NCBI RefSeq assembly: GCF_018141525.1
Contig: NZ_CP064655.1
Coordinates: 992,001-1,056,000, forward strand
Direction: 5' to 3'
DNA: 64,000 nt
Source of the DNA: Miltoncostaea marina
GTDB lineage: Bacteria > Actinomycetota > Thermoleophilia > Miltoncostaeales > Miltoncostaeaceae
Made by a program: the position numbers and the translations under genes. This document shows positions 27,253 to 63,442 of the stretch, piece by piece (position 1 is the stretch's first letter; each line of letters opens with the position of its first letter). The notes beneath the pieces are model-generated. The model saw only the letters and a program-made list of their open reading frames with translations. It ran no database searches and was not told the origin of the DNA.

Positions 27253-27280
27253 TCCCGAGCGCGCGGACCCGGCTTCCGGG

Positions 27281-27600
27281 GACCGGGTCGGCGGGGGCGA
27301 TCCTGATCGCGGGCGGGACCCGGCCCTGTCCTGGACGAGGTCGTCGAGGGACGGGGTCGGCGGGGGGCGATCCTCTGCGCGGGCGGGACCCGGCCCTCTC
27401 TTGACGAGGTCGTCGACGGACCAGGTCGGCTGGGGCCGATCCTCTGCGCGGGCGGGACCCGGCTCTGTCTTGACGAGGTCGTCGACGGACCAGGTCGGCT
27501 GGGGACGATCCTCTGCGCGGGCGGGACCCGGCCCTGCGTTGACGACGTCGTCGAGAGACGCGGTCGGCTGGGGCCGATCCATTGCGCGGGCGGGACCCGG
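27281..27600. repeat. 69-70-bp tandem repeat array
   Basis: The core GGGCGGGACC recurs at 27311, 27381, 27450, 27519 and 27588, i.e. periods of 70, 69, 69 and 69. Between cores each unit carries GACGAGGTCGTCGA, a GGTCGGCTGGGG segment and CGATCC. The inner two units are nearly identical and the outer ones drift. The minus strand could be read as a 23-residue peptide repeat (VDDLVKTEPGPARAEDRPQP), but no start, domain or neighbour supports a gene. Two further units precede element copy C at 37369-37447. Confidence 0.85.
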
Positions 27601-27849
27601 CTCTGCGGGCCGGCTCGCGCTGGGCACGGTGTCGACCGGCGTGCCCCTCACGCGGGGACCCGGCCTCTTTCGGGCCGGGTCACGCGGCAAATCGCCCCTG
27701 GCCGGGGCGATTTGCGGACCGGCGCACCGCCTTCGGCGGGGCGGGCGCCGGAAACCCCATTGACGGATCCGTCCGTGGTGCGCGTGGGGTGTGCCGGGTG
27801 CCCTCGTGGCCGGTTCTGTCCCGCTCCCGCCTTCGGCGGTCGTGTCTCC
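27588..27849 (+). repeat. Interspersed structured element, copy A
   Basis: 262 bases align without gaps to 37438-37699 (offset 9850), including a 79-base identical run (27681-27759) and a 46-base run (27804-27849). In order it holds a GC-rich hairpin with a pyrimidine-rich loop, a perfect 12-bp hairpin (27687-27698 with 27704-27715, arms GCAAATCGCCCC / GGGGCGATTTGC), CCGCCTTCGGCGG, the palindrome GACGGATCCGTC followed by CGTGGTGCGCGTGG, and a second CCGCCTTCGGCGG. No protein-coding signal is apparent. Confidence 0.85.
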
Positions 27850-27959
27850 GGCGACCCCTCCGGATCACGTTCACGTCGTCCAGGACGAAGCGCGGCCGGT
27901 CGCCCGCGCGGCGGGCTCCGACGTCCTCGGCGGGTGGCCGTGGACACGAGGGCCGAAGG

Positions 27960-28165
27960 CCCGAGGGATCACCGGCCACGACGGCGCCGGGCGCACGCCA
28001 CGCGCACCACGGACGGATCCGTCAGTGGGCTTTCGGCGGCCCGCCCCGGCCGATAGGCCGGTGCCGCCGTGTGCAGATCGCCGCGGGCAGCGGCGATCTG
28101 CGGCGTGGCCGGGCCCGCGAGAGGGCCGGTCCCCCGCGTGGGTCCTCGCGTGGGACGTCAGGCGG
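27960..28165 (-). repeat. Interspersed structured element, copy B (inverted, diverged)
   Basis: Read on the minus strand it repeats the order of copy A. Its main hairpin has arms GCAGATCGCCGC / GCGGCGATCTGC (28073-28084 with 28090-28101), so two base pairs differ from copy A yet all 12 pairs are kept. The CCGCCTTCGGCGG hairpin becomes CCGGCC-TATC-GGCCGG, and ACGGATCCGTC with the CGTGGTGCGCGTGG block is retained near 28001-28024. Copies A and B are head to head, about 230 bases between their palindromes. Confidence 0.75.
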
Positions 28166-37248: not shown

Positions 37249-37447
37249 CGCCTCGCGCGGCCCCGGGGGCGGGGCGGTCTGAGGTCGGTCGGCGGTGGTG
37301 GGTCGTCCCGGACGGGGTCGTCCGGGAACGGGATGGTCCGGGGCCGATCCTGAGCCGACCCCTGGCGCGGGCGGGACCCGGCCCCCGCTTGACGAGGTCG
37401 TCGACGGACCGGGTCGGCGGGGGTCGATCCATGGCGCGGGCGGGACC
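37249..37447. repeat. Degenerate 69-bp repeat units before element copy C
   Basis: GGGCGGGACC cores at 37369 and 37438 (period 69), preceded by a degraded GACGGGGTCGTCCGGG / GATGGTCCGGGGCCGATCC segment. Same unit as at 27281-27600, but fewer copies. No gene is apparent. Confidence 0.7.
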
Positions 37448-37699
37448 CGGCCCTGCGGGCCGGCTCGCGCTGAGCACGTCGTCGACCGGCGTGCCCCGAG
37501 CGCGGGGGCCGGCCCACTTGCGGGGCCGGCCACGCGGCAAATCGCCCCTGGCCGGGGCGATTTGCGGACCGGCGCACCGCCTTCGGCGGGGCGGGCGCCG
37601 GAAACCCCACTGACGTGAGCGTCCGTGGTGCGCGTGGGGTGTGCCCGGCGCCGTCGTGGCCGGTTCTGTCCCGCTCCCGCCTTCGGCGGTCGTGTCTCC
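37438..37699 (+). repeat. Interspersed structured element, copy C
   Basis: Gap-free match to 27588-27849 at an offset of 9850 bases. The 12-bp hairpin (37537-37548 with 37554-37565) is identical to copy A, while the palindrome GACGGATCCGTC is changed to GACGTGAGCGTC. The preceding GC-rich hairpin differs in sequence but remains pairable (GGCCGGCCC ... GGGGCCGGCC). It lies in direct orientation to copy A, so the two bracket the atp operon. Confidence 0.85.
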
Positions 37700-37811
37700 C
37701 ACCACGTCGGAGCTCGATCAGGTCGTCCAGGGCGGAGCTCGTTCACTTCGCCGCGCGGCGCGCCCCGGCGGCGCGTCAGCGCCGACGGAGCCGCGCGGTT
37801 CGTCGCACACT

Positions 37812-37855
37812 GCCGGAATGGCGCGCCCCGGCCGCCAGGCCGGAGCCATTCCGGC
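37812..37855. repeat. Nested hairpin
   Basis: Outer arms GCCGGAATGGC / GCCATTCCGGC (37812-37822 with 37845-37855, 11 bp perfect) enclose CCGGCC-GCCA-GGCCGG. Part of the non-coding tract between FKBP and the MFS gene. Confidence 0.65.
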
Positions 37856-37890
37856 CGGCGCGCCAGCCAGCGTGCCTCGGTTCGACGCAG

Positions 37891-37923
37891 CCCAGGCCGC
37901 CCGGCGGAGCCGGGCGGCCTGGG
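37891..37923. repeat. Perfect 15-bp hairpin with 3-base loop
   Basis: CCCAGGCCGCCCGGC / GCCGGGCGGCCTGGG with loop GGA. Several nearby copies of GGCGGAGC (also near 37731, 37921 and 37967) suggest another short repeat family. A terminator role is possible, but the nearest upstream stop is over 600 bases away. Confidence 0.65.
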
Positions 37924-38002
37924 CGGAGCTCTGGATCGCTTCCACTCCGAAGCGCGGCCCGGCCTCGGCGGAGCCTCACGGCGCGCCGACGTCGGAGCCC
38001 CG

Positions 38003-47745: not shown

Positions 47746-48201
47746 GTGCGCCTGCGCCGCCCCCTGATCACCGTCACCGCCGCCGTCCCCGCGCTGGTCG
47801 CGGCCCTGGCGATCCCCGCCGTCGCCGCGACGCCCGCGCCGAAGCCGCCCGCCCCGAAGGCGGGCGCGTGGACCCACGTGACGGTCCAGCGCGGCTACGA
47901 CCTGGCCTTCCGGGTGGCCGGCGGCAGGGTCACGAAGGTCGTCGCCAACGTGCTCGAGGACTGCACCGGCGAAACCGTCTCCCGCGTCGCCACCTTCGCG
48001 CCCGACGCGAGCTACCCGGTGAAGGGCGGGCGCTTCGGCCGCAAGACCGTCGAGCGGTTCGACGGCCTGACCGCCCGCATCGACTTCCGCGGCCGCTTCA
48101 CCAGCCGCACCCGGGCGACCGGCACGCTGAAGATGGAGACGATCGTCGCCGGCTCGGTCTGCACCACGTACACGCTCAGGTGGACGGCCCGGCGCAGGTA
48201 G
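47746..48201 (+). CDS. Small secreted protein with two conserved-looking Cys
   Basis: 151 residues. A signal peptide (residues 1-27, cleavage after AVA), a Pro/Lys linker, then a beta-rich domain with a Cys in LEDCTGE and another in GSVCTTY that may form a disulfide. Not recognised. GTG 47746 has GGAG seven bases upstream. It is monocistronic, just after mtnA. Confidence 0.7.
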   Translation: MRLRRPLITVTAAVPALVAALAIPAVAATPAPKPPAPKAGAWTHVTVQRGYDLAFRVAGGRVTKVVANVLEDCTGETVSRVATFAPDASYPVKGGRFGRKTVERFDGLTARIDFRGRFTSRTRATGTLKMETIVAGSVCTTYTLRWTARRR

Positions 48202-48256: not shown

Positions 48257-48690
48257 TGGACCCCGGCCCCGGTCCGAGCGGCGCGGCCACGCGCGGCGGC
48301 CGTGCCGGCCGACGTCCGAATGGACCTCGACGCCGGTCCGATCGGCGCGAGCCCGGGTTCGCGCGCCTCCCCGCCCCGGCGTGCATCCAAGTGGACCTCG
48401 ACGCCGGGTCCAATCGGACCGCACCGGCCACGGCCGCCCGGGCAGGGACGCCGCGGGTCGCGCCGAGTGCATGCGCCGGGTGGACCCCCGACGCCGGGGC
48501 CGATCGGCCGGCACCGGCGACGGTGGGGTGGGCACGGGCCCGGCGGGATGCGCCAAGTGGACCTCGACGCCGGGTCCAATTGGACCGCACCGGCGACGAG
48601 GCGGTGGGCACGACCGCCGGGGGCACGGGCGCGGCGGGACGCGCCAAGTGGACCTCGACGCCGCGGCCGATCGGACCGGGCGCGCCCGCG
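48257..48690. repeat. Six-copy palindromic repeat cluster
   Basis: TGGACC begins copies at 48257, 48321, 48392, 48481, 48558 and 48659 (spacing 64, 71, 89, 77, 101). The best copies read AAGTGGACCTCGACGCCGGG then TCCAATCGGACCGCACCGGC. Each has TGGACC...GGTCCA arms and a following palindrome, GGTCCAATTGGACC in copy 5 and GGCCGATCGGCC in copy 4. The 579-base gap (48202-48780) otherwise shows no gene; frames across it are Arg/Pro/Gly-rich and lack a start with support. Confidence 0.75.
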
Positions 48691-48768
48691 CGCCGCCGTC
48701 ACGGGCGCCGGCGCGGGGTCGTGACGGGGTCGGCGTGGAGCGGGCGCCCTCGGTGACGGCGGCGGCCC

Positions 48769-63061: not shown

Positions 63062-63428
63062 GGGCCCGATCCAGTTTCGACGGAGCGGAACCGCAACGGT
63101 AAGCGAGCCGCGGACCCGGAGGACCGCGTCAACAACCGGGAACCAACGGAGCTGCGGAGTCTTCTCCCAAGCTCGCTCTCGCTGCCTAAACAGCAGTAGA
63201 TGAGAGCCATCGGCCTCCCTTCGGGTCGTGAGGGAGATCACCGGTGTCAGCCAGCGACCCTGGCTCGGCGGCAACGGCACTCGGCCGCCGGGTGAGATCG
63301 CAGGAGCGCCTGGCGGGGGTGCGGTCGGTCGACGGTGACGCCCCCCGTGAGATCCTCACCGCCGACTGCGCTCGGAGAAGCCGTTGGGGGAACGCTTTCG
63401 GACGCCGGGGCAGTGCCGGCCGGGTCCA
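63062..63428 (+). ncRNA. ssrA: Transfer-messenger RNA (tmRNA)
   Basis: The 5' end GGGCCCG (63062-63068) pairs with CGGGTCC (63421-63427), then A; CCA is not encoded. The conserved tmRNA 5' segment is seen as CCAGTTTCGACGGAGC. A tag reading frame ends AESSPKLALAA then TAA (63188-63190), the expected LALAA-type degradation signal; the resume codon is probably GGA or GCT a few codons upstream. Several hairpins downstream fit pseudoknots. The T-arm stem is GCCGG/CCGGC, but its loop GGCAGTG is not the usual TTCRANY. Total length 367 is normal. Confidence 0.82.
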
Positions 63429-63442
63429 CTGCGGAAGGTCGT

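Follow-up and report, generated by a model that had tools for sequence, protein, structure and literature searches.

The window, a 64,000-nucleotide stretch (positions 992001-1056000) of the 3.37-Mb, single-contig genome of Miltoncostaea marina, contains three copies of a hairpin-rich repeat, designated A, B, and C. Copies A and B share one gap between convergent genes, and copy C lies at a second site. The parts are a tandem leader (R), a hairpin core (K) with hairpins HP1 to HP5, and a further hairpin module (D). They are placed as follows, with coordinates of the window.

27253-28157 (no strand): intergenic gap of 905 bp, bounded by two convergent stop codons and occupied by copies A and B
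27279-27605 (+): R array leading into copy A (TRF: period 69, 4.7 copies, 89% matches)
27588-27849 (+): K core of copy A, 262 bp, among the 20 full copies in the genome
27657-27681 (+): HP1 of copy A, of the type GACCCGGCC-loop-GGCCGGGTC; its counterpart in copy C is of the other type, GGCCGGCCC-loop-GGGGCCGGCC
27687-27715 (+): HP2 of copy A, 12-bp stem with loop TGGCC
27719-27751 (+): HP3 of copy A, with an outer stem, a 5' A bulge, an inner hairpin, and a 5-nt 3' bulge (GGCGG), followed by AAA
27755-27789 (+): HP4 of copy A, which differs among copies
27827-27839 (+): HP5 of copy A, CCGCC-TTC-GGCGG
27945-28150 (-): copy B, diverged and inverted, with the K hairpins and without an R array or D
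28031-28069 (-): HP3 of copy B, a match to model R3 (genome 1020031-1020069)
28073-28101 (-): HP2 of copy B
37317-37455 (+): R array ahead of copy C, two units (R profile)
37438-37699 (+): K core of copy C
37700-37930 (+): D module of copy C, with more hairpins

The initial annotation of these copies gave correct sequences and coordinates but drew their extent too short: C runs on into D, and B starts near position 27945. The 69- to 70-bp tandem array that it placed ahead of copy A is recovered by TRF and divided by the R profile into five units, the last of which overlaps the core. The two units that it placed ahead of copy C are likewise found. In the central stem, HP2, the arms are 100% complementary in both copies (27687-27698 with 27704-27715 in A; 28073-28084 with 28090-28101 in B), and the reported change of two base pairs on both arms with pairing kept is present in the sequence. 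So is the change in the neighboring hairpin, the inner part of HP3, which reads CCGCC-TTC-GGCGG in A and C and CCGGCC-TATC-GGCCGG in B. HP5 also differs on both arms, its GGGCC-TTC-GGCCC in B standing against the form listed above for A. The copies are not a product of chance, since a genome search aligns copy A with 19 further copies of full length (88-95% identical) and the fold of the copy has z-scores of -3.3 as RNA and -4.0 as DNA.

The three copies, while real, turn out to be part of a genome-wide family of about twenty full copies, and the D module had escaped notice. The repeats are a genus-specific family of noncoding, structured, interspersed mosaic elements. A search with copy A finds the 20 full copies and the diverged, inverted copy B, and the family as a whole exceeds 30 members in this genome, the only one by which the species is sampled. 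Full composites have the mosaic layout R(1-8)-K-D, range from 579 to 1,255 bp, and add up to 16.7 kb, or 0.5% of the genome. The R units, 69 to 82 bp each, number one to eight per copy and by the R profile lie always 5' of K and on its strand. D, about 200 bp long, follows K on the 3' side in most copies when these are aligned with their flanks; it occurs at about 20 places, some of them without K, and stands twice in tandem, K-less, at 322.5 kb of the genome. Reduced units, consisting of the hairpins HP1-HP2-HP3, are found mostly behind stop codons, and each of the four genus genomes has them. Six of the K composites lie within 80 kb (genome 2711-2790 kb), a denser cluster than elsewhere.

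How far does the family extend? A search of the genome and its relatives finds units with HP2-HP3 in 4/4 genus genomes; model R2 matches all four and, among the class's other genomes, 0/395, with the proviso that the stricter filters of so wide a search can lose weak matches. The shorter model R3, built on HP3, gives a single weak match (in G039, E = 0.0014) among 35 genomes from outside the genus, which is taken as chance. A pattern scan of genome contigs matches two metagenome-assembled genomes (MAGs) of the genus and one hairpin in a Halomonas MAG; the latter lacks the HP3 context and is also put down to chance. Phages, plasmids, and viral contigs contain no match to the element. Among the relatives, G001 carries at least five near-identical units of about 85 nt, mostly directly after stop codons, and the gene ahead of one unit in that genome presumably encodes ribosomal protein L7/L12, judging from its C terminus. 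Copies in G002 and G003 lie near contig ends, and copy number there is probably underestimated. Rfam 15 yields no credible match at either the gathering score or relaxed thresholds, and no description of the family was found in the literature searched, which was limited to open-access papers. Elsewhere in the window, Rfam recognizes a tmRNA gene (63062-63431, 71 bits) that is missing from the ARAGORN output.

With genes called by a simple custom codon-usage caller, all 20 composites are intergenic, 8 in convergent, 11 in co-directional, and 1 in divergent gaps, and they nearly always adjoin the 3' end of a gene. Convergent gaps are enriched (8/20 composites versus 2/27 other gaps in the window; Fisher p = 0.011), against a background sample that is small. 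In 15/20 copies, some 50 bp at most separate the left neighbor from the start of R. Of the 24 units without K, 20 have a 5' neighbor that points towards the unit, which mostly lies 0-42 bp past its stop codon, and among the 19 with both neighbors known none is in a divergent gap. At the locus of A and B, the 905-bp gap corresponds to much shorter ones in two relatives, of 34 bp (G001) and 29 bp (G002), each a plain hairpin. The simplest reading is that the insert was gained in the M. marina lineage. At the locus of copy C, G001 carries different genes and is hence uninformative.

So close an association with stop codons brings in the chief rival to the explanation favored below, namely, that the unit is a host RNA element of 3' ends, transcribed with the upstream gene and either stopping transcription or protecting the 3' end, with the K composites as overgrown versions. 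The position of the non-K units fits this well, as do the lasting constraint on HP1, HP2, HP3, and HP5 in each copy and the conservation of loops and bulges while stems change (both described below). Other observations fit it poorly. K composites in co-directional gaps show no preference of orientation (6 sense, 5 antisense), several upstream genes keep a terminator-like hairpin of their own ahead of the R array, and A and B have neither a U-tract terminator nor a sigma-70-type promoter pattern. On balance this is a possible explanation, though an unlikely one.

Selection for a folded structure, in RNA or single-stranded DNA, had been suggested from copies A, B, and C, and it is well supported by a larger set of units. 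In an alignment of 10 units from M. marina (A2), 98.8% of cells are paired, and two-sided change is seen in 10 of 24 pairs. Across 24 units from the four genomes (A4), 96.9% of paired cells stay paired. A4 contains 94 two-sided cells versus 27.0 in shuffles, a count reached by 0/500 shuffles, and 15 pairs with two-sided change; its covariation score is 0.510 versus 0.139, with slid controls below 0.1. These figures are to be read with the reservation that A4 was fitted to the model, so that it leans towards structure, and that the shuffles ignore relatedness. HP3 keeps the motif GC-A-CCGSC ... GSCGG-G, with its A bulge and 5-nt 3' bulge, in nearly all 24 units; in its outer stem, by contrast, a position may show as many as four types of pair. 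Although the stems differ among the four genomes, the loops, the bulges, and the length of the spacer do not, and the fold of HP2 and HP3 is conserved through two-sided changes. The D module contributes little: 8/55 of its predicted pairs have changed on both sides, with a negligible covariation term. Because paired bases change together, the folded shape is probably recognized by something.

Wobble pairs are rare in A4 (15/548 cells), which sits awkwardly with an RNA element of 3' ends. The predominance of Watson-Crick pairs would instead agree with a site of DNA-level architecture, by analogy with the binding of gyrase or a nucleoid protein at convergent gene ends in Escherichia coli BIMEs, as would the enrichment in convergent gaps. 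There are only about 20 large copies, however, in irregular clusters, and binding to duplex DNA needs neither conserved single-stranded loops nor an asymmetric bulge, so this reading seems quite improbable.

A different kind of constraint is seen among the 20 K copies. HP2 has a diversity of 0.013, HP5 of 0.005, and HP3, with copy L017 left out, of 0.000, compared with 0.10-0.14 in R, the post-R segment, HP4, and the mid segments. HP1, at 0.13, is diverse because it exists as two whole-hairpin types. Private mutations are depleted in HP1, HP2, HP3, and HP5 (1/2127 cells versus 30/3065 elsewhere; p = 2.8e-6 without L017), and HP2 and HP3 alone give p = 5.7e-5. A first singleton test, which compared HP2, HP3, and HP5 with four other segments and retained L017, gave p = 0.50 because the whole-hairpin switch in L017 was counted as ten events; the version without L017 and with HP1 added was chosen after the data had been seen, and both outcomes are hence given. 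The copies also recombine: most pairs of markers from the lead, HP1, spacer, HP4, post, and tail segments are in four-gamete conflict, which means that markers reassort between copies, and HP1 and HP3 switch between copies as whole cassettes. Part of the two-sided change in K is accordingly wholesale exchange of hairpins by recombination rather than stepwise compensation. Short-tract gene conversion could account for some of the uniformity of HP2 and HP3, yet HP4, which lies between HP3 and HP5, is not uniform.

Might recombination explain everything? The initial annotation had reckoned with simple duplicated junk if the element were found only here, showed no covariation in more copies, and gave no transcript. 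A current form of this idea would have the two-sided changes arise solely from quasi-palindrome template-switch repair and gene conversion, and recombination alone can indeed yield the whole-cassette switches of HP1 and HP3. It would not readily keep loops, spacers, and bulges intact in four genomes with differing stems, nor spare HP1, HP2, HP3, and HP5 from private mutations when HP4, also a hairpin, is not spared. The many members in this genome, the relatives in every genus member, the covariation across 24 units, and the persistence throughout the genus all run counter to junk, which is disfavored as very improbable.

The explanation preferred here, held with little better than even confidence, is a nonautonomous mosaic element moved in trans, its hairpins recognized as a folded single strand and its modules later rearranged by recombination. 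The basic unit, HP1-HP2-HP3 directly behind gene ends, would have expanded in M. marina into the R(1-8)-K-D composites. A factor acting in trans would bind HP2 together with HP3, which is asymmetric with its conserved A bulge and G-rich 3' bulge, both in folded single-stranded form. Further copies would land behind terminators, where they do little harm, and homologous recombination would then shuffle the hairpin cassettes and alter the number of R units. Several points tell against movement in trans: no mobilizing enzyme is linked to the element, the M. marina copies show no consistent termini, inverted terminal repeats, or target duplications, and lasting hairpin constraint at each locus fits use by the host at least as well. 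More tentatively, HP2-HP3 may be the recognition structure of an undescribed single-strand system confined to the genus, whose stems may change as long as they pair; such a system could pair a structured RNA with a dedicated binding protein, or it could be a form of folded-DNA transposition without a Y1 enzyme.

What could have moved the element? The Y1 transposase (PF01797) is absent from G000-G003 and was detected in five control genomes. The IS110 genes of the M. marina genome lie outside the K copies and were rejected as drivers. In G002, one copy breaks off where HP2 meets HP3, and behind the break lies a fragment of an IS110-type gene (L152, 1600-2114 of contig G002:C236; PF01548, E = 6e-4, below the curated cutoff); the contig stops short of the far side. 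REPs are known targets of IS110 elements (PMC1525189). Separately, a stretch of about 2.6 kb with an IS110-type gene occurs in two copies that are 99.9% identical (L169 and L172, at 884.7 and 3036.8 kb of the genome), which suggests a recent duplication.

A conventional transposase acting on terminal inverted repeats (TIRs) would make the family MITE-like, the copies here being decayed and rearranged descendants whose left arms have multiplied as R. Like MITEs, the repeats are noncoding, folded, and dispersed, and in two G002 copies HP2-HP3 and an intrinsic terminator lie between inverted arms of at least about 44 bp, the outer left arm resembling R. In M. marina, by contrast, none of the 20 loci has a right arm complementary to R, all R-profile matches being on one strand, and no consistent termini, TIRs, or target duplications were seen. 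At orthologous gaps the sequences are too diverged for exact ends, and the copies share no termini. No transposase flanked by such arms was found, nor any partner transposase. A MITE-like origin is rather unlikely.

The nearest counterparts of the family in architecture are BOX (PMC3049150) and REP/BIME repeats (PMC8266576, PMC3733652). It belongs to no described family that could be tested, and the element works like an interspersed mosaic repeat of the BOX or BIME type. With BOX of Streptococcus pneumoniae it shares ordered modules with a tandem module of variable number (here R(1-8)-K-D), strong folding, and noncoding, intergenic copies over-represented between convergent genes (PMC3049150). 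The tandem module is 5'-terminal here and in the middle in BOX, the units here exceed those of BOX in size and are GC-rich, no IS with matching terminal repeats was found, and two-sided changes were measured over four genomes. The boxA, boxB, and boxC modules form a streptococcal family from an unrelated host, and the resemblance is one of architecture. With REP/BIME repeats and their RAYTs (PMC8266576, PMC3733652, PMC2817692) the shared features are an imperfect palindromic hairpin with a conserved asymmetric bulge, a mainly intergenic position near 3' ends and convergent genes, mosaics, and apparent targeting by IS110. The differences are that the genus lacks a Y1/RAYT gene, that copies number in the tens and not in the hundreds, and that the core consists of several hairpins. 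Moreover, none of the 24 units has a GTAG or CGTC tag at HP3, the flanks being CACA, CGGA, or CATC on the 5' side and mostly AAAC on the 3' side. With neither tag nor RAYT, the family does not qualify as REP.

These features make the family a test case for detecting structural selection on interspersed palindromic repeats through covariation, with four genomes, a clear hairpin in HP3, and no RAYT. It bears on how RAYT-less, REP-like repeats spread and why they persist behind genes, a question that was left open for the CGTC repeats (PMC3733652). In addition, the variable number of R units may help to tell strains apart in an actinobacterial lineage that has received little study.

Other tandem arrays are also present in this genome. 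Within the window, a separate intergenic array at 48391-48711, with units of 76 to 91 bp (CCCCGACGCCGGGGCCAATCGGACCGCACC...) unlike R, sits in the 720 bp that separate the genes at 48201 and 48922. Two more, L183 at 858.7-859.1 kb of the genome and L184 at 2370.9-2371.4 kb, lie between convergent genes and have units of about 76 to 97 bp, each with an HP3-like hairpin, GGCCGGC-A-CCGGC-TGACC-GCCGG-GGCTG-GCCGGCC.
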